NCBI GenBank assembly: GCA_001817065.1
Contig: MHHQ01000020.1
Span: 1-52,720 of the forward strand
Length of the DNA stretch: 52,720 nt
Reading direction: 5' to 3'
DNA from: Candidatus Andersenbacteria bacterium RIFCSPHIGHO2_02_FULL_46_16
GTDB taxonomy: Bacteria; Patescibacteriota; Andersenbacteria; UBA10190
The position numbers and the translations under genes are program-made. Of the stretch, positions 8,901-52,540 are shown in pieces. Numbering within the stretch: position 1 is the stretch's first letter; each line of letters starts with the position of its first letter. The notes beneath the pieces are model-generated. The model saw nothing but the letters and a program-made list of their open reading frames with translations, did not search any database and was not told where the DNA came from.

Positions 8901-9599
8901 ATGCCAGGCATCTTGATTTCTTTCGATGGTATTGACTCCTCAGGTAAAGAAACCCAAGCCAAACAATTATTGAAGAATGTTGAGACCACCGGTCGTCGCG
9001 TGGGCTTTTTCCAAACACCTGACTATACCACAGCCTCAGGAATCAAACTGAAACATTTATTCCAAGACCAAGACGGCTCCTGGGATAACCTAACGTGGCC
9101 GGAGAAAATGCAACTTATCGCTGCCAATCGCGCTGAGCATAGGGACGAAGTCATCCATCTATTACAGCAGGACGGCATCGTTATCTACGATCGGTATGTG
9201 CCTAGTAGTATTGCGCATATGATGGCTGATGCCCTAGATTCAAAGGCCACCGAGCTTGATCGCCAGGCCATACAAGCGCAAGTAGAAGACCATGAGTATG
9301 GCCACCATCAGATGCCGCACGAAAACTTATCAATATTTTTAGACCTGTCTCCTGCCCAGGCTGCCTCTTTATTACAAGTTAGAAAACAGCAGTTAGCTGA
9401 GGGTGATGAAGCAACTGACCGGCTTGATTTGCAGGAAAGAATTTATCAGGCCTATCAGTGGCTGGTTAGTAATTTTCCCGATCGGTGTATAAAAATAGAC
9501 TGTGTGGAGAAAGACCATTTATTAGCCATAGACGTAATCTCCGATAAAGTCTGGCAATCTGTCACGAACCGGTTTCCTGACCTTATTGCTGACTCCTAG
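8901..9599 (+). CDS. tmk: thymidylate kinase
   Basis: P-loop ISFDGIDSSGKETQAKQL, YDRYVPSS motif. Confidence 0.88.
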   Translation: MPGILISFDGIDSSGKETQAKQLLKNVETTGRRVGFFQTPDYTTASGIKLKHLFQDQDGSWDNLTWPEKMQLIAANRAEHRDEVIHLLQQDGIVIYDRYVPSSIAHMMADALDSKATELDRQAIQAQVEDHEYGHHQMPHENLSIFLDLSPAQAASLLQVRKQQLAEGDEATDRLDLQERIYQAYQWLVSNFPDRCIKIDCVEKDHLLAIDVISDKVWQSVTNRFPDLIADS

Positions 9600-9625
9600 T
9601 TGCTATTTACTGATTACTAGCTCTT

Positions 9626-10270
9626 ATGTCTAAGTTCATCGTCATTGAAGCCCTTGACGCTGGGGGCAGCCAAACACAAACCAACCGCCTAGCACAACAC
9701 TTAATCGAAGGTAGCTATCAAGTGTTACAATTGCATTTTCCTCAAGAAAACCAGCCGACCGGTCGTTTCGTCTATGAAAAATTCTTGCTGGTACATAATA
9801 AACCAAAATTTACTCGCCGCGAACAAGCCCTCATTTATATCCAGGATTTTTACTCACAAACAGACACTATCCAAGCACACTTATCGAAGTCAGCTAAATC
9901 CATTGTCGTCTCTGACCGCTTTTATACCAGTACCAGCGCTTATCAGACTATCGGTCTAACCGGCCGCCCGCGCGCTGCCATGTTGGATTGGATTAAATTC
10001 TTAACCGAGCAGGAAGCATACCATCTACCTAAACCAGACCTAGTAATTTTCTTAGATACTCCAGTCAACATTTCTCTAAACCACCTCAAAAATAAGACCA
10101 AAGATTTCTTTGAAAACAAGCAAAAACTAACCGCTATTCGCAACAGCTATCTACGTATCGCCCAGGAAGAAAAATGGCTGGTTATCAATAGCGTCAATAA
10201 TAGGGGAGAGCAACGCTCGATCGAGGATATTCACGACGAAATTTGGTCTCATTTATCCGGCGTGATCTAA
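9626..10270 (+). CDS. thymidylate kinase-like protein with degenerate Walker A
   Basis: TMK fold motifs (VIEALDAGGSQTQTNRL, VVSDRFYTSTSAYQ, LVIFLDTPV) but the P-loop Lys is replaced. Confidence 0.8.
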   Translation: MSKFIVIEALDAGGSQTQTNRLAQHLIEGSYQVLQLHFPQENQPTGRFVYEKFLLVHNKPKFTRREQALIYIQDFYSQTDTIQAHLSKSAKSIVVSDRFYTSTSAYQTIGLTGRPRAAMLDWIKFLTEQEAYHLPKPDLVIFLDTPVNISLNHLKNKTKDFFENKQKLTAIRNSYLRIAQEEKWLVINSVNNRGEQRSIEDIHDEIWSHLSGVI

Positions 10271-10689
10271 CGCCCTGAGCTACCGAAACCAGCGGCTGCC
10301 CGTTTAGTATCCGATAGCTTTTTCACTTCCTTGATGCGCACCGGTTCAAATTTTTGCATTACGCATTGGATGACTTTATCGCCTGCTTTGATGCCATAAG
10401 GTTTTTTAGTCAGATTGACCAAGATCACTTTCCATTCCCCTCGATAGCCGGAGTCGATCACACCGGCCAGCCGATGAATACCATTGCTGCCTAAACCAGA
10501 CCGATCCCAAAGCAGTGCTACATATCCGCGGGGAAACTCCACCGCGATTCCGGTAGAAAACATATATGTCTCTCCTGGGTTCAGCGTATGTGACTCGTTG
10601 GTGTAAATATCGATACCGGCATCATCCTGATTATTTTTTGTGGGAAGAATAGCGTTAGGCGATAATTTTTGGACTTTAAACGAAAGCAT
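10267..10689 (-). CDS. dut: dUTPase (deoxyuridine 5'-triphosphate nucleotidohydrolase)
   Basis: DDAGIDIY, DRSGLGSNGIHRLAGVIDSGYRGEW, GFGSSGR motifs. Confidence 0.93.
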   Translation of the reverse strand: MLSFKVQKLSPNAILPTKNNQDDAGIDIYTNESHTLNPGETYMFSTGIAVEFPRGYVALLWDRSGLGSNGIHRLAGVIDSGYRGEWKVILVNLTKKPYGIKAGDKVIQCVMQKFEPVRIKEVKKLSDTKRAAAGFGSSGR

Positions 10690-45037: not shown

Positions 45038-45225
45038 TCCAAAAGGTTAGAGACATATGCCTTGCCGTCCATACCTTTCTTGACCACCGTAGCTTTAGCA
45101 AAGGTGATAGTTACGGGAACCAGATCAAGCAGGCAGGAACTGCTTTTGCGACTATTTATGATAGAAGCACTGTAAAAAATGAATTGTTTCAATATGAAAA
45201 AATTGTTTGGAACCGTGCTAAAATA
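45038..45225. repeat. dispersed repeat, copy R4
   Basis: TCCAAAAGGTTAGAGACATATGCCTTGCCGTCCAT...GTTTGGAACCGTGCTAAAA. Confidence 0.55.
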
Positions 45226-45231
45226 CCATAT

Positions 45232-45800
45232 ATGAGTAAACGGGAACGCGTCGCAATTTTCGTTGATGGTAGCAATATGTATCACTACGTCAAAGGACTT
45301 GGCCTTGAACCCAAGGTACAATTTGATTACACAAAGTTTGGTTTGTGGCTTGCGGGCGGCACATAATTTCTGCCACTTATTACATAGGCAAAATTTGTTC
45401 TAATCACGACGAAAAAAGCCAGCGCCTAAGATCAAACCAACAACGAATGATGGCGTGGCTTAACCAATGCGGTTGGAAAATCGAATTTGGTCACATGCTT
45501 AGAAATATGGGTATTTATCATGAAAAGGGTGTTGATGTGCACATGGCTGCTGATTTGTTGCGTGGCGCATATAAAAATTTGTACGATACAGCAATCCTTG
45601 TTAGTTCCGACACTGATCTTATTCCGGCCATCCAATATTTACGGGAAGAAGGTAAAAAATTGGAATATATTGGTTTTTCTCATCAGCCGTCTTACGGACT
45701 TATAAAATACTCCGATGTGCGAACTTTACTCAAAAAAGAGGATCTAGAGCCGTTCCAATCCACCAAAAAGCACCAAAAAACCCGCCGTAGCTTGCGCTAG
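45232..45800 (+). pseudogene. NYN-domain (LabA/DUF88) protein interrupted by a frameshift
   Basis: RVAIFVDGSNMYHYVKG...LWLAGGT* then a second frame GRHIISATYYIG...VDVHMAADLLRGAYKNLYDTAILVSSDTDLIPAIQYL. Confidence 0.85.
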
Positions 45801-45991: not shown

Positions 45992-46918
45992 TTAGAGTAT
46001 TGCAGCCGGGCTTAGTCCCTGATCTTGTGAGTTTTGTAAGTTTTTTAGCAATCCTTTGCCCATTTCATCCAACCAGCCATTTTGTTCAAGCCATTCAAGA
46101 ATAGGGATGAACATAAATGCGTTTGTGTCATCTTGCCATTGGAGATGAGTTGCAAGGCTTATCGTCAGAGGTGCGGCATTTTGTGCTAGGTGTGAGATAT
46201 TAACTCCTTTCCGCTTATCCCAGTAGTGGGCAATTCTAATTGGGGAGATAGGGGAATTAGTAACATATTGAAACTGTTCTGTGTAATAGGGCACTAGTTG
46301 GTGAAAACGCATGATATTAAGATAGTCAATTCTGATCCAAGCCCGCCAAATATCGATGGCTTTTGCTCTAAAACTTTCATCATTCATCAGCTCTTGGTTA
46401 AAGCTCAAAAAGGGCGCTCCAACATCAACAATCCAATTATCATGACCAGCATCATCTAATTTATGCTCAGCATCACTTGGGTCGCACGGAGTTTCGCTTT
46501 TAGGTTGGGAAGCAATGGTGATAGAAAAAGGATTATGGGCAATACCGGTTTTCAAAAAAACTAGCCACAGTCTTCGCAGTGAATACAAATCAACAGTTTT
46601 AAAAGAAGTATCAACTCGAGCCAAATAAAGGGGAGTGGTTAATGTTTTCAGCCAAATAATTTCATGTTCTGCCCATTTCTCATTCTTGAGTCCACCGTAC
46701 TGCAGTGTTGCGCTACCACCCTTAACTTGGAGAGCGCACATTTCGGCTACGGTCTTTGTGGCTTTCCCGGATGCAATCAATGGCTGGCAATAAAAGTCTA
46801 TTCCGAAATCCGCCTCGGAGGGCACTTTAACCATTGATGCCAAATGGCCTAGTAAGCTCTCGGCTGACTTTTCATAGCGCATCCCTCGCAAACCAACGTC
46901 ATGTCTTTGTCCGCTCAT
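45992..46918 (-). CDS. DUF4365/PD-(D/E)XK-like protein
   Basis: SEADFGIDFYCQPL...CALQVKGG resembles D...QxK nuclease core; ATGA overlap with SIR2 gene. Confidence 0.6.
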   Translation of the reverse strand: MSGQRHDVGLRGMRYEKSAESLLGHLASMVKVPSEADFGIDFYCQPLIASGKATKTVAEMCALQVKGGSATLQYGGLKNEKWAEHEIIWLKTLTTPLYLARVDTSFKTVDLYSLRRLWLVFLKTGIAHNPFSITIASQPKSETPCDPSDAEHKLDDAGHDNWIVDVGAPFLSFNQELMNDESFRAKAIDIWRAWIRIDYLNIMRFHQLVPYYTEQFQYVTNSPISPIRIAHYWDKRKGVNISHLAQNAAPLTISLATHLQWQDDTNAFMFIPILEWLEQNGWLDEMGKGLLKNLQNSQDQGLSPAAIL

Positions 46919-47952
46919 GAGCTTAGAAGTGACTCTTTAATATCCTTGAAATGCACTGTCTTACTCTGATCTGGGGGGAATATCTCTCGCATAGAATATG
47001 GAAAATAGCCCTTGGTGCCTTGCTCCCACAGAGGAAGCGCATAATACCGGCCGTTTTGTAGGTATTGTGCAAAATCAGCCGGATCAGACGGATTGATTAT
47101 GTAAAGGCTCAACCCATGATCCTTCATCGCTGTGAGCAAGATATTGTTAATATGCTCGTCGTTGAAGCCATAACCAATAATCAAGAGTCGCTTGTTGCCA
47201 CTAAATAGAACTTCTTGAAATAGCTCGAAATACCATTTGAGGAGAGGCTCCTTATTAATCTGGTCAGCTTTGTTTTTTCCAATGACCATACGCTGCTCTT
47301 GGGTTGCTGATCGCCATCCATAAGATCCGTGCAACTTCACAAACAATGACCGAGGTTCCGCAGTCAGATTTTGCTTAGCTTTCTCAACTTCTTCCTCTGT
47401 TGGGATGGTGATGAAGTTTGATCTCTCCATCTTCCATCCTTTCACGTCGTAAATCTTGGCATCGGGAAATGAGGTCGTACCAAGTGAGCGGCGTTTATAG
47501 TCCCGTTCAAAGAGCAAATCCTGATTGAGAGTGAAAATGAAGCCCTTTTCAGTGGGTGACGTTCCGACGAAAAGGTTGAGCAGATCGGCCAGTCCATAGG
47601 TGTTGAAGGCCGTAGGGTTGTCGTTGTTAAAAGTCCACCCTTTAATCGCATTGTCCAAACCTTCATATGCCTGTTCAACCGCCGCTTTTATGGCTTCCTT
47701 ATCATGTTGGTCATATCGTTCGGCATCCAAGATATTTGAATACACACACTCGTAGTCACTGGTGTTGCGTACCATCGCATCGCGCACATTTGGCCTCACC
47801 TGTACCATTTGGTGATTAAAGATTTTTGACCACATCTCTTTGGCCAAGAACCCTCCGTAGTTTTTGGTAAACCCCGCGCCGGTCAGCAGTACGAGATTGT
47901 GATATTCAATACCATCCGGCATATGTACTACACTAGTCCAACTCAAGATCAC
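46915..47952 (-). CDS. SIR2-domain protein (putative NADase effector)
   Basis: LLTGAGFTKNYGG, FTLNQDLLFER, VKLHGSYGW, LLIIGYGFNDEHIN; ATG at 47922 is an alternative start. Confidence 0.88.
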   Translation of the reverse strand: MILSWTSVVHMPDGIEYHNLVLLTGAGFTKNYGGFLAKEMWSKIFNHQMVQVRPNVRDAMVRNTSDYECVYSNILDAERYDQHDKEAIKAAVEQAYEGLDNAIKGWTFNNDNPTAFNTYGLADLLNLFVGTSPTEKGFIFTLNQDLLFERDYKRRSLGTTSFPDAKIYDVKGWKMERSNFITIPTEEEVEKAKQNLTAEPRSLFVKLHGSYGWRSATQEQRMVIGKNKADQINKEPLLKWYFELFQEVLFSGNKRLLIIGYGFNDEHINNILLTAMKDHGLSLYIINPSDPADFAQYLQNGRYYALPLWEQGTKGYFPYSMREIFPPDQSKTVHFKDIKESLLSS

Positions 47953-50284
47953 CCAAAGATGAGATCATGGGGAGCAAAATGGGGGCAGTTGCTCGAGTAA
48001 ATGTCCCGATTTGTTTGTAGATTGTACCTTCCTCAACCTCGCCACTATCAGCATCACTCTGATGCTCGAAATGCTCCAATATAGCGATCCCAATCAGAAC
48101 TAGACCAAACTTGAAGCGAGCCTCGAGTATTTTAGAGTCAATCTTAGTATTTACCTTAATCTCTGATTTAAGATGCACGTTATCCATATTGACGAAGAAG
48201 TCGTATCCACCTTGACCGTCATCCTTTACCTGCAAAGCAGTTCGCTCATCAAATCCTTGTCTTTCCCAATCGTCATGCCTGATTTCCACAATGTTTGGTA
48301 GAGCGAGCCGTGAAGGACTCTTGTGATCTTTGCCAGTTTGGTTGCTTGCTGGATCTTTCCTTTCTCCGGGTTCGCCACCGCCACCCTTTACCGGTGGAGC
48401 CACCCGAATAAAAAATGCCTCTCCCAATGGATCAACTTTTGAGATGTCACTTATTCCAGCTTCAACTTCTAAGACGGAACCTACACTTGATCCCTTTGGT
48501 AACTGTGCAGTCAGAGTGGCTGTGCCATTCCACAAATTAAGGGAATAATCTTCAACTATGGAGCCGTTGATGGTCAGAGAGAAGTCTCCCGGATCTTTGT
48601 CTCGGTTGAAATAGTCATTTTCAGCATCAGTCTCAAACTGCACCCGGAACTTCCGGTTTTGTGGACACTGTTTTGGGTTCTTTTCTGTATGACGCTTGGT
48701 CAGCTTGAAGTATGTTGGATACCTTTTCCCTTCGAAGTCGTCCTGCGCTGCAACATCAGTAAAGTTGAATGGATTTTTCAATCTAGTGCCAGTGACAAAT
48801 AGTGAAGCAAGTGATGGAGATTTCTTGATGATATTCTCGAGCATCTCCGCCAGAGGTTTTTGATCCTGCAGTCTATTTTCCACTTCTTCCCGCCTCCGTC
48901 GCTCACGGAGATCACGCAGCCCTTGATGGTTTTTTATCAAATCCTCAAGCTGTCGCTCAATGTCTGCTTTGAGACTCCCTTCTCGCAAGCGATCACGGCT
49001 GTTCATAAACAAATCCTCTCTTGCTCGACCTTCAAAGTTGGAGCAGTCAATCATAATTAAAATGCTGTCTGATAGGTACGACATCCCGACTGATTTTCTA
49101 TCAAAGAACTGGCTTGGAAGAAATCCGTGGGCTTGGCCATTAACGCTGAAAATAACTCCTTCATTCTTCGAGTAGTTCTCGCGCTGTCCTTTCCTGAATG
49201 CGTAAATACGCACATCCATTTTCTGGCCAAGAGCAGTGATTTCAGCAGAGCTTGGAAAGCCAGGCTCAAGATTATCTCTCTTGTCCTCATCTAGTCGTAC
49301 AGACAAACCGGACAGCACAGCGTGTTGCGTATGTGCGGAATATCCTTCACGCCGCTCAAATAGAGTGACTGGCAAAGCAATGCCGGGTAGCAGTAGCGAT
49401 AGGCGATAGTAGGGGTCGAGTTTGATTGTGGTTCTAAAGCCCTTGAGTTGATATTCGTACAGCTTAATAAGAGTGCCGTACTCCCACGTCTGCCCATAAG
49501 GATCGGGGTATTCACCGGGCAGTAGTGAAAGACTAGCGGCACTGAATGACATAATTTTTCCGCTGGGCGCCAAGTATCTAAACGTCGAGCTTCTCATACC
49601 ACTTTTAGTATCGGGATCCTCACGGCGGACAACAGTAAAGCCCCACAGTTCTCTGTCGTCATCCTTCTCATTCCTAGCGATCCTTGGATCCCTCCGAGAA
49701 ATTATGAGTTGCATGTTGTGGTTCTTGCTGCAAAATTGAAGCGCTCCCGTTCCCCCCATGTTGAACTTCCCCTGTACGAATGGGATCTTGAGCTTGTTAG
49801 ACTTGTTAAGAGACAGTAGTGTTTCGGGCATCCTACTAGGCGATTGTCCCTCTCCATGATCAATGATGCTGTAACATGGGTCGCCTTTCTTTCCGGTTGC
49901 AACAACAAGTATTTTTTGCGCCAGATCTGCTCGCTGACTCGAACCAATGCTCGAAAGTTTCCCATCATATATTCCAAAAAAGTCACGCTGCGCTATCTCT
50001 ATGGATCCCGGGGCATCCTTTCCATCCGCTTTAATACCTCGCCCAAGGCACTCTCTCATTAGGACAGCATCGACGGAGTTTACGATCTTTTCGACAAGAG
50101 CAGTGTCAGCGCTACTTTGCTGGTTGCCTATGGTTGAGAAGTTGTTCGGATTATTGCCATAATCCCTCCATGACGATGGATCATCCCAATAACCTGCCTT
50201 CTCCAAAATACTAACAACCTTTTTTTCACTCTCTGCTTGAGCGAGCGATATACAAAGCTGTTTGAGGGCGCTATTAGTCATCAC
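47933..50284 (-). CDS. GHKL (Hsp90/MutL/MORC-like) ATPase
   Basis: N-box LVEKIVNSVDAVLM, G1 IIDHGEGQSP, G2 GKFNMGGTGALQF. Confidence 0.85.
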   Translation of the reverse strand: MMTNSALKQLCISLAQAESEKKVVSILEKAGYWDDPSSWRDYGNNPNNFSTIGNQQSSADTALVEKIVNSVDAVLMRECLGRGIKADGKDAPGSIEIAQRDFFGIYDGKLSSIGSSQRADLAQKILVVATGKKGDPCYSIIDHGEGQSPSRMPETLLSLNKSNKLKIPFVQGKFNMGGTGALQFCSKNHNMQLIISRRDPRIARNEKDDDRELWGFTVVRREDPDTKSGMRSSTFRYLAPSGKIMSFSAASLSLLPGEYPDPYGQTWEYGTLIKLYEYQLKGFRTTIKLDPYYRLSLLLPGIALPVTLFERREGYSAHTQHAVLSGLSVRLDEDKRDNLEPGFPSSAEITALGQKMDVRIYAFRKGQRENYSKNEGVIFSVNGQAHGFLPSQFFDRKSVGMSYLSDSILIMIDCSNFEGRAREDLFMNSRDRLREGSLKADIERQLEDLIKNHQGLRDLRERRRREEVENRLQDQKPLAEMLENIIKKSPSLASLFVTGTRLKNPFNFTDVAAQDDFEGKRYPTYFKLTKRHTEKNPKQCPQNRKFRVQFETDAENDYFNRDKDPGDFSLTINGSIVEDYSLNLWNGTATLTAQLPKGSSVGSVLEVEAGISDISKVDPLGEAFFIRVAPPVKGGGGEPGERKDPASNQTGKDHKSPSRLALPNIVEIRHDDWERQGFDERTALQVKDDGQGGYDFFVNMDNVHLKSEIKVNTKIDSKILEARFKFGLVLIGIAILEHFEHQSDADSGEVEEGTIYKQIGTFTRATAPILLPMISSLGDLELD

Positions 50285-50505
50285 AATCGGAACTCCTTAT
50301 TCTCCGGGAAGTAAAACTTTGATTTTACTTCTTTCGTCTTGCGCTCAATTTCAGCAAAAATCTTTTGTATTTCATCCTCGGTATAGCCATACACGCTGCG
50401 GTTGGCACAGTTACCAAGTACCCGAAGGCGATTTAGAATATCGTTGGTTCGCTTGGTGGCGAGTCGCTTGAACCTTTCCTGCTTGGGACTCATATTTTTT
50501 GTCAT
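50281..50505 (-). CDS. 74-aa small protein, first gene of the putative defence operon
   Basis: KQERFKRLATKRTNDILNRLRVLGNCANRSVYGYTEDEIQKIFAEIERKTKEVKSKF; stop/start overlap with GHKL gene. Confidence 0.75.
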   Translation of the reverse strand: MTKNMSPKQERFKRLATKRTNDILNRLRVLGNCANRSVYGYTEDEIQKIFAEIERKTKEVKSKFYFPENKEFRL

Positions 50506-50650: not shown

Positions 50651-50658
50651 CTAATGGG
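50651..50658. repeat. IS target-site duplication, left
   Basis: CTAATGGG. Confidence 0.9.
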
Positions 50659-50704
50659 CTGTGAATTACGAAACTCCATTTTACTTACAAAATCTGCTAA
50701 CATA

Positions 50705-50732
50705 ACAAAAGACACCGTAAGGTGTCTTTTGT
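50705..50732 (+). terminator. 12-bp perfect hairpin just upstream of transposase start
   Basis: ACAAAAGACACC-gtaa-GGTGTCTTTTGT. Confidence 0.75.
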
Positions 50733-50751
50733 AAACAATGCATCCTTCAAT

Positions 50752-51558
50752 ATGCACTCACTAGTTTATGACAAGTTGAAGCACATTGTCACCCAATTAT
50801 TCCAACAATTCAAGCTTACCTCACCAACGCCGGTAAGCGGTCGACCAAAAAAGATCTCTGACATTAATGCCGTCACCTTATCCCTGTACAAACAACACAG
50901 TACCCGCGCCACCAAGAAATCCGTCTACGATGACTTCAAAACCGAACTGAAATGTTCCTACAAAACCTTAGTCGTCGCCATCAACCGCGCCGCCTTGCTG
51001 ACGCTCCGGATCCTGCTCATCCTGATGCGCCTTGGTAAGAAACAAGCCCACCCGGTCAAGTATACCGACGCCACCGACTTACCTGTCTGTTTGAAAAAGA
51101 ATGCTGATGACCACCGTACGATGGCTGGCTTAGCGCAACTGGGAAAAAGCTCAAAAGGCTGGTTCTTTGGCCTAAAACTGACTATGACGCGCGATCACGC
51201 TGGCCGGCTGCTGGGCCTTGGATTCACTCAGCCAGGTGTTAATGACCGCGACATCTTCCGTTCCATCAACCAGGATATCTATGGCCTGATCATTGCGGAC
51301 GCGGGGTACGTGTCCAAGCAGCTGGAGCGGGACATGCACATCGAGGGGAAACGATGGACGATGATCCGTCCCTACAAAACGATGAAGAAACTGGCGACAG
51401 ACTGGCAGCTTAAGTTGTACGAAGGGCGCTTTAGGATTGAGTTTGACTTTCGTAACCTGAAACTTTTTCATGGGCTGATCACCTCGCTGCCCCGATCAGT
51501 TAACGGCTACCTGGCGAACTACCTGCACGCGCTGCTGTCGTACGTGCTAACGAAGTAA
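50752..51558 (+). CDS. IS982-like DDE transposase
   Basis: YTDATDLPVC, GWFFGLKL, IIADAGYVSKQL, RFRIEFDFRNLK. Confidence 0.85.
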   Translation: MHSLVYDKLKHIVTQLFQQFKLTSPTPVSGRPKKISDINAVTLSLYKQHSTRATKKSVYDDFKTELKCSYKTLVVAINRAALLTLRILLILMRLGKKQAHPVKYTDATDLPVCLKKNADDHRTMAGLAQLGKSSKGWFFGLKLTMTRDHAGRLLGLGFTQPGVNDRDIFRSINQDIYGLIIADAGYVSKQLERDMHIEGKRWTMIRPYKTMKKLATDWQLKLYEGRFRIEFDFRNLKLFHGLITSLPRSVNGYLANYLHALLSYVLTK

Positions 51559-51689
51559 AAAGACAAACAAATAAAACTAACAGGCGTTGGATTGAGTGAC
51601 AAATCGTGGGTCGTTGAAAAATTCCCAAAGACCGGGTGAGTTTGGTTATGGGTAAATAATATGAATAAATTTAGTTTCGTAATTCACAG

Positions 51690-51697
51690 CTAATGGG
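51690..51697. repeat. IS target-site duplication, right
   Basis: CTAATGGG. Confidence 0.9.
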
Positions 51698-52141: not shown

Positions 52142-52540
52142 ATGGTTCACAAAAAGGATTTTGATAATTGGAATGAGAAAAAGAAACAACTTCATGCTAC
52201 CAGTCCAAAGGTCTATTTTCACGAAAGGGAAGTGTGGTGGTGTTCGTTAGGTATTAATATTGGTTTTGAACAAGATGGAAAAAGTGATAAATTTTCTCGT
52301 CCAGTTGTCATTCTAAAGACGTACAGCATTAACGCCGCTTTGGTAGTCCCACTCACGACGAGAGACAAAAAGGGAGCCTACTATTTTGATCTAGGTAAGA
52401 TAGGCGGAAAAGATGCGAAGGCAGTGCTTTCGCAAATACGCTTTATCGACAAACGGCGTTTAATCAAGAAGCTTGATGTAGTAAATAAGGACTTGTTTGA
52501 GAAACTTAAGTCGGCAATCATACAAATAAATCTTTCCTGA
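52142..52540 (+). CDS. PemK/MazF-like toxin
   Basis: REVWWCSLGINIGFEQDGKSDKFSRPVVILKTYSINAALVVPLTT...AVLSQIRFIDKRRL. Confidence 0.85.
   Translation: MVHKKDFDNWNEKKKQLHATSPKVYFHEREVWWCSLGINIGFEQDGKSDKFSRPVVILKTYSINAALVVPLTTRDKKGAYYFDLGKIGGKDAKAVLSQIRFIDKRRLIKKLDVVNKDLFEKLKSAIIQINLS

Follow-up and report, generated by a model that had tools for sequence, protein, structure and literature searches.

A paraMORC-type Small-Protein/GHKL ATPase Module Joined to a Predicted SIR2 NADase in a Putative Defence Operon of Candidatus Andersenbacteria

Introduction

Near one end of a contig of Candidatus Andersenbacteria bacterium RIFCSPHIGHO2_02_FULL_46_16, four consecutive genes encode a small protein, a GHKL ATPase, a SIR2 protein and a DUF4365-like protein. 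Do these genes act together as one anti-phage system, and is such a system conserved as a set? The window analysed here is the whole stretch of 52,720 nt, which is the entire contig 20 of a Patescibacteria-like genome of 1.36 Mb that is 98.5% complete. A preliminary description of this DNA, made from the sequence, had proposed a coupled defence operon, and its claims are considered below together with the results that bear on them.

Results

Gene Organization of the Locus

The four minus-strand ORFs at 45992-50505 were reproduced at the same coordinates, and each was coding in its own frame: the frame-wise coding score was +0.07 to +0.12 in that frame only, and negative in the other five. Gene 1 (50281..50505, minus strand) encodes a 74-aa small protein, which is conserved beside GHKL ATPases and absent from the family catalogues. 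It is followed by gene 2 (47933..50284, minus strand), a GHKL (Bergerat) ATPase of 783 aa that founds the family called GHKL-A here and is classed as paraMORC-like on its motifs and predicted fold. Gene 3 (46915..47952, minus strand) encodes a SIR2-family protein of 345 aa, a predicted NADase, and gene 4 (45992..46918, minus strand) a DUF4365-like protein of 308 aa, possibly a PD-(D/E)XK nuclease.

The small-protein and GHKL genes overlapped by 4 nt with the GTG start, or by 1 nt (TGATG) with the ATG start that homologues favour. The GHKL/SIR2 junction was a 20-nt overlap with the listed GTG start of the SIR2 gene; the probable true start, favoured by homologues, is the ATG at 47922 (SIR2 residue 11), which leaves a 10-nt gap after the GHKL gene. 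The SIR2 and DUF4365-like genes overlapped by 4 nt (ATGA). Overlaps of about 4 nt at the first and last junctions and a GHKL/SIR2 junction within 20 nt had been claimed before, and the junctions together with the coding signal confirm that the genes are real and coupled. A scan of the operon region for promoter- and terminator-like matches found no excess over shuffled sequence.

The contig ends 2.2 kb from the operon. Upstream of the operon, at a distance of about 150 bp, lies an IS982-like insertion (50658..51690), a neighbour outside the system. It carries a transposase gene (50722-51558, plus strand), its terminal inverted repeats are 24 nt long (92%), and its 6-bp target site, TAATGG, is perfectly duplicated. 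Since this duplication is clean, the element removed nothing at its own site. A PemK/MazF-like toxin gene (52142-52540), divergent from the operon, lies at the contig end. On the other side, a gene for an NYN-domain protein (45345-45800), a predicted RNase, is convergent with the operon; an ORF in another frame (45184-45366) overlaps it and may be its N-terminal part.

The GHKL ATPase

The preliminary description had stated that the GHKL protein keeps the N-box, G1 and G2, and the alignment agreed: N-box residues E65, N69 and D72, G1 residues D142, G144 and G146, and the G2 region QGKFNMGG were all intact and invariant among 14 homologues. No Pfam match rose above the cut-off (the Bergerat fold appeared below threshold, HATPase_c_3 E=0.12), and neither PADLOC nor NCBIfam held a model for the protein. 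The AlphaFold2 model, built with 12 sequences, had a pLDDT of 71.9, and a Foldseek search with it returned the 43-kDa ATPase-plus-transducer fragments of ParE and GyrB (E 3e-10, prob 1.00, about 400-470 columns). The TM-scores of these matches were low, an effect of the query's greater size and several domains and of segments that are poorly modelled. In the predicted structure, residues ~60-200 form the ATPase domain and residues ~200-430 a transducer/S5-like domain after it, followed by a coiled region; the C-terminal region received no structural assignment.

An ATPase domain with a transducer/S5 domain is the architecture of MORC and paraMORC proteins (PMC2292703), so the match to the GyrB/ParE fold points to a paraMORC-like ATPase. 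The S5 motif of MORC proper, GhXhhpXXRhl, was not seen by inspection: in the corresponding segment, GVIFSVNGQ, the position of the MORC Arg is always Gln. This replacement argues for a paraMORC-like protein and not a MORC. The model thus places the GHKL protein among the paraMORC-like ATPases, a label given on fold and motifs at the level of the whole group.

The SIR2 and DUF4365-like Proteins

The SIR2 protein matched Pfam SIR2_2 (PF13289) above the cut-off with 48.7 bits, and PDB 8yhx, a SIR2 family protein, with E 1.6e-7. Its GAG, TLNQD and KLHGS motifs were intact and conserved in homologues of 43-47% identity, including the Asn of TLNQD and the His of KLHGS that had been pointed out before. 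It therefore has a SIR2 fold with the catalytic Asn and His, and is predicted to be a NADase of the defence type. PADLOC, run on all four proteins, returned only generic models for it (Aga_SIR2 and SIR2) and no match for the other three.

Two relatives of this protein were found, neither of them near a GHKL gene. One (L031) stands alone beside a recombinase, so the SIR2 protein of the window may not need the GHKL protein. The other (L032, 8871-10536) belongs to the same subfamily and overlaps, by a few nt, the preceding gene of a DUF4145 protein, itself 3' of a tyrosine recombinase. No relative was found on plasmids or viral contigs, nor within the tested GHKL-A genomes in a search run without a positive control.

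Gene 4 matched DUF4365 (PF14280) below threshold (E=0.022; 15.3 bits vs a cut-off of 24.3). It contains E...DFGID...LQVK, which is the pattern E...DxGxD...QxK, and by this pattern it may be a PD-(D/E)XK nuclease. No homologue was found on plasmids; the phylum gave one fragment with internal stops, and the viral contigs five 45-residue matches that were judged spurious. The structure prediction was unusable (mean pLDDT 33.9). The proposal that this protein is a nuclease or recogniser thus stays unproven, with no convincing homologue and no reliable model.

Distribution of the GHKL-A Family

Members of the GHKL-A family were found in bacteria, archaea and viral contigs, at 35 loci in all: the window, 11 genome contigs, 6 plasmids, 11 loci from a profile search of sampled genomes and 6 viral contigs. 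Its distribution was patchy, with 2 of the 240 genomes sampled in the phylum and further members on plasmids and viral contigs. None was found in phage records, nor in E. coli genomes by a DNA-level search.

Genes of DNA modification lay close by in about 20 of the 35 loci, a lower bound because some of the remaining loci end at a contig edge. In 11 loci (L004, L006, L010, L011, L068, L069, L071, L073, L074, L085, and L087) a DNA methyltransferase gene was within 60 nt of the GHKL-A gene and often convergent with it. PADLOC assigned two of these enzymes to type II models (L073, 479 bits; L006, 66 bits over part of the protein), and the others were assigned by homology to these two. C5 methylases occurred in L007, L017, and L090, and phosphorothioation-type PAPS reductase/DUF4007 genes in L013, L014, L016, and L072; L076, from its sequences, may be a BREX locus. 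Restriction-modification neighbourhoods are thus found for the family and not at the window itself. In several loci (L006, L071, and L073) only a methyltransferase, the small protein and the GHKL gene were evident, with no separate nuclease gene.

A DNA methyltransferase family of ~405 aa repeatedly adjoins GHKL-A (L006, L010, L011, L068, L069, L071, L085, and L087), and the two together are a candidate two- or three-gene system. On a Hymenobacter plasmid, in the phosphorothioation-type island of L014, a ThsA/Dsr-like SIR2 gene (9436-10275) is convergent with GHKL-A, and their ends overlap by 4 nt.

The SIR2/DUF4365-like pair was present in none of the other 34 GHKL-A loci, and its linkage to the small protein and GHKL gene was seen at the window locus only. 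A conserved four-gene system was therefore rejected. The preliminary description had named a lack of co-conservation as a result that would speak against a joint defence function, and the comparison showed such a lack. From the comparison of neighbourhoods, the conserved unit is genes 1-2, a small protein and a GHKL ATPase that recur as a module in DNA-modification neighbourhoods.

The Small Protein and a Second GHKL Family

Homologues of the small protein, which has invariant Arg, Asn, Tyr and Phe positions and no model in Pfam, PADLOC or NCBIfam, were encoded immediately 5' of GHKL-A in seven loci (the window, L003, L006, L007, L071, L073, and L090). In L004, L005, and L012 its place is taken by a protein of ~340 aa with a winged-helix-like C-terminus. 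Homologues were also encoded upstream of GHKL genes of the PDC-M33A type, which PADLOC lists as part of a candidate system (L035, L091, L094, and others), where the order on plasmids and viral contigs is small protein, PDC-M33A, M33B and M33C, in methylase/Vsr loci. Comparison of the profiles of the GHKL-A and PDC-M33A-type alignments gave no significant match; a single family was therefore rejected, and the two were treated as separate. Since they are not detectably related, the small protein seems to accompany GHKL ATPases linked to restriction-modification in general.

Seven PDC-M33-type loci (L035, L036, L041, L091, L092, L094, and L095) had the small protein upstream, many of them with C5 methylase or Vsr genes. 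In L037 and L039 the small protein and a third type of GHKL were followed by genes for an AAA/OLD-like TOPRIM ATPase and for a UvrD helicase, a pair that resembles Gabija.

Comparison With Known Systems

No named system was found in the literature pairing GHKL or HATPase with SIR2, and none for PDC-M33 either. Together with the PADLOC results, this supports the earlier statement that no named system has such a composition. TIR domains are now known as NADases in other systems. The closest published precedent is paraMORC4, which carries a TIR domain or lies next to one; paraMORCs occur in restriction-modification systems (Iyer, Abhiman and Aravind 2008, PMC2292703). In both cases a GHKL ATPase with an S5 domain is linked, within one protein or through neighbouring genes, to a NADase-type domain, and the neighbourhoods, for the window those of its GHKL family, are of the restriction-modification type. 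The window differs in having SIR2 instead of TIR (no TIR domain was matched in its four proteins), separate genes, additional small and DUF4365-like proteins, and no methylase beside it.

The PDC-M33 systems share with the window a GHKL-type A protein with a small-protein homologue upstream and occur in methylase/Vsr loci, whereas the window GHKL has no PDC-M33A match and no B or C gene; PADLOC matched neither it nor gene 4 to this system. In VcSduA, a Shedu protein of the paraMORC3 family with a GHKL N-terminal domain, residues of both the GHKL ATPase domain and the nuclease domain are needed for anti-phage activity (PMC12137116). Here too a GHKL ATPase is thought to gate an effector, but the nuclease of VcSduA is fused as DUF4263 in one protein, with no SIR2 and no small protein, and the window GHKL protein has no Pfam nuclease match and hence no Shedu-type C-terminal DUF4263/RE-fold nuclease. 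SPARSA SIR2-APAZ/pAgo, HerA-SIR2, DSR1/2 and Thoeris ThsA have in common with the window a SIR2 domain of the NADase type that keeps its catalytic Asn and His. The window operon holds no pAgo, HerA or ThsB gene, has no TIR partner, and encodes neither a large sensor domain nor an SLOG domain. The four-gene combination was absent from every other genome sampled and matches no system found.

Discussion

The analysis supports a defence-type context for the locus, as first proposed. The operon probably defends against phage, and it is best described as a paraMORC-type defence variant with a SIR2 effector, a composition not conserved as a set. The reading that we prefer, at close to an even chance, is a mosaic defence system in which a paraMORC-type ATPase and sensor module has recombined with a SIR2 NADase and a putative nuclease as effectors. 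It draws on the coupled, coding genes, the intact ATPase and SIR2 motifs, the predicted GyrB/ParE-like fold, the modification-linked context of the GHKL-A family, the small protein upstream of at least two GHKL families, and the paraMORC4 and VcSduA precedents. The small protein and GHKL ATPase would form the module, whose counterparts in related loci adjoin genes for DNA modification. The module probably uses ATP to clamp or loop DNA, and would distinguish self DNA from DNA that is foreign or unmodified. In the window genome the module would be coupled to the SIR2 NADase and the DUF4365-like putative nuclease. Phage DNA would make the ATPase dimerise, and the dimer would activate the depletion of NAD+, perhaps along with cleavage of DNA, leading to abortive infection. 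Several points speak against the mosaic: the four-gene set was seen once, the SIR2/DUF4365-like pair being unlinked to the family in the other 34 loci; a SIR2 relative stands alone; and self DNA would have to be spared without a known cognate methyltransferase.

The main rival is that two independent defence units adjoin within one transcript, the small protein and GHKL ATPase acting alone and the SIR2 and DUF4365-like proteins being an abortive-infection or toxin-antitoxin-like pair inserted downstream. This could well be so, if with clearly less than an even chance. It agrees with the 34 GHKL-A loci that do without the window SIR2, with SIR2 relatives that stand alone or with DUF4145, and with the tightness of the ATGA overlap compared with a GHKL/SIR2 junction that may be a 10-nt gap. 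However, co-oriented genes no more than 10 nt apart are normally one transcript, and no promoter or terminator excess over shuffled sequence was seen in the region.

Several loci hold only the module and a DNA methyltransferase, so the module may need no classical restriction nuclease. That it is an unnamed modification-dependent module of this kind, here rewired to NADase and nuclease effectors as GHKL-gated SIR2 abortive infection, is a tentative and somewhat unlikely extension.

It is quite improbable that the small protein and GHKL ATPase are an orphaned restriction arm, the methyltransferase having disappeared or being encoded elsewhere in the genome, with the SIR2 and DUF4365-like genes as passengers or later effectors. 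The family usually lies beside modification genes, and the IS982-like element directly upstream and the nearby contig end would fit a loss, but the target duplication is clean. A search of the genome found no C5 methylase and three N6/N4-methyltransferase matches, two in frames of 646-715 aa and a weak one in an uncharacterised, methyltransferase-like ORF of 398 aa among housekeeping genes. The two long frames would suit a methyltransferase encoded elsewhere, but all three matches were only weakly similar to the GHKL-linked enzymes, and a hidden cognate enzyme was rejected for the C5 and N6/N4 classes covered. The close relatives L002 and L003 also have no neighbouring methyltransferase.

From this and the genome search, the branch of GHKL-A in the window may have switched from modification-linked to effector-linked, or may respond to a signal other than methylation.

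A non-defence role, for example in DNA repair or regulation, would agree with the part that MutL-like ATPases play in repair and with the suggestion that certain paraMORCs may have taken on a repair function (Iyer et al., PMC2292703), but it is very improbable given the patchy distribution, the presence on plasmids and viral contigs, the modification-gene neighbourhoods and the linkage to a defence-type SIR2.

Broader in scope, and better supported, is the finding of the small-protein/GHKL module beside DNA-modification genes. A small protein and an uncatalogued GHKL family next to methyltransferases, in several loci with no evident nuclease gene, are good targets for defence discovery. If, as the mosaic reading holds, the GHKL protein gates SIR2, then MORC/MutL-like ATPases would be swappable DNA sensors that drive different effectors, restriction-modification would be linked to NAD+-depletion immunity, and MORC silencing in eukaryotes would gain a prokaryotic counterpart that can be tested.
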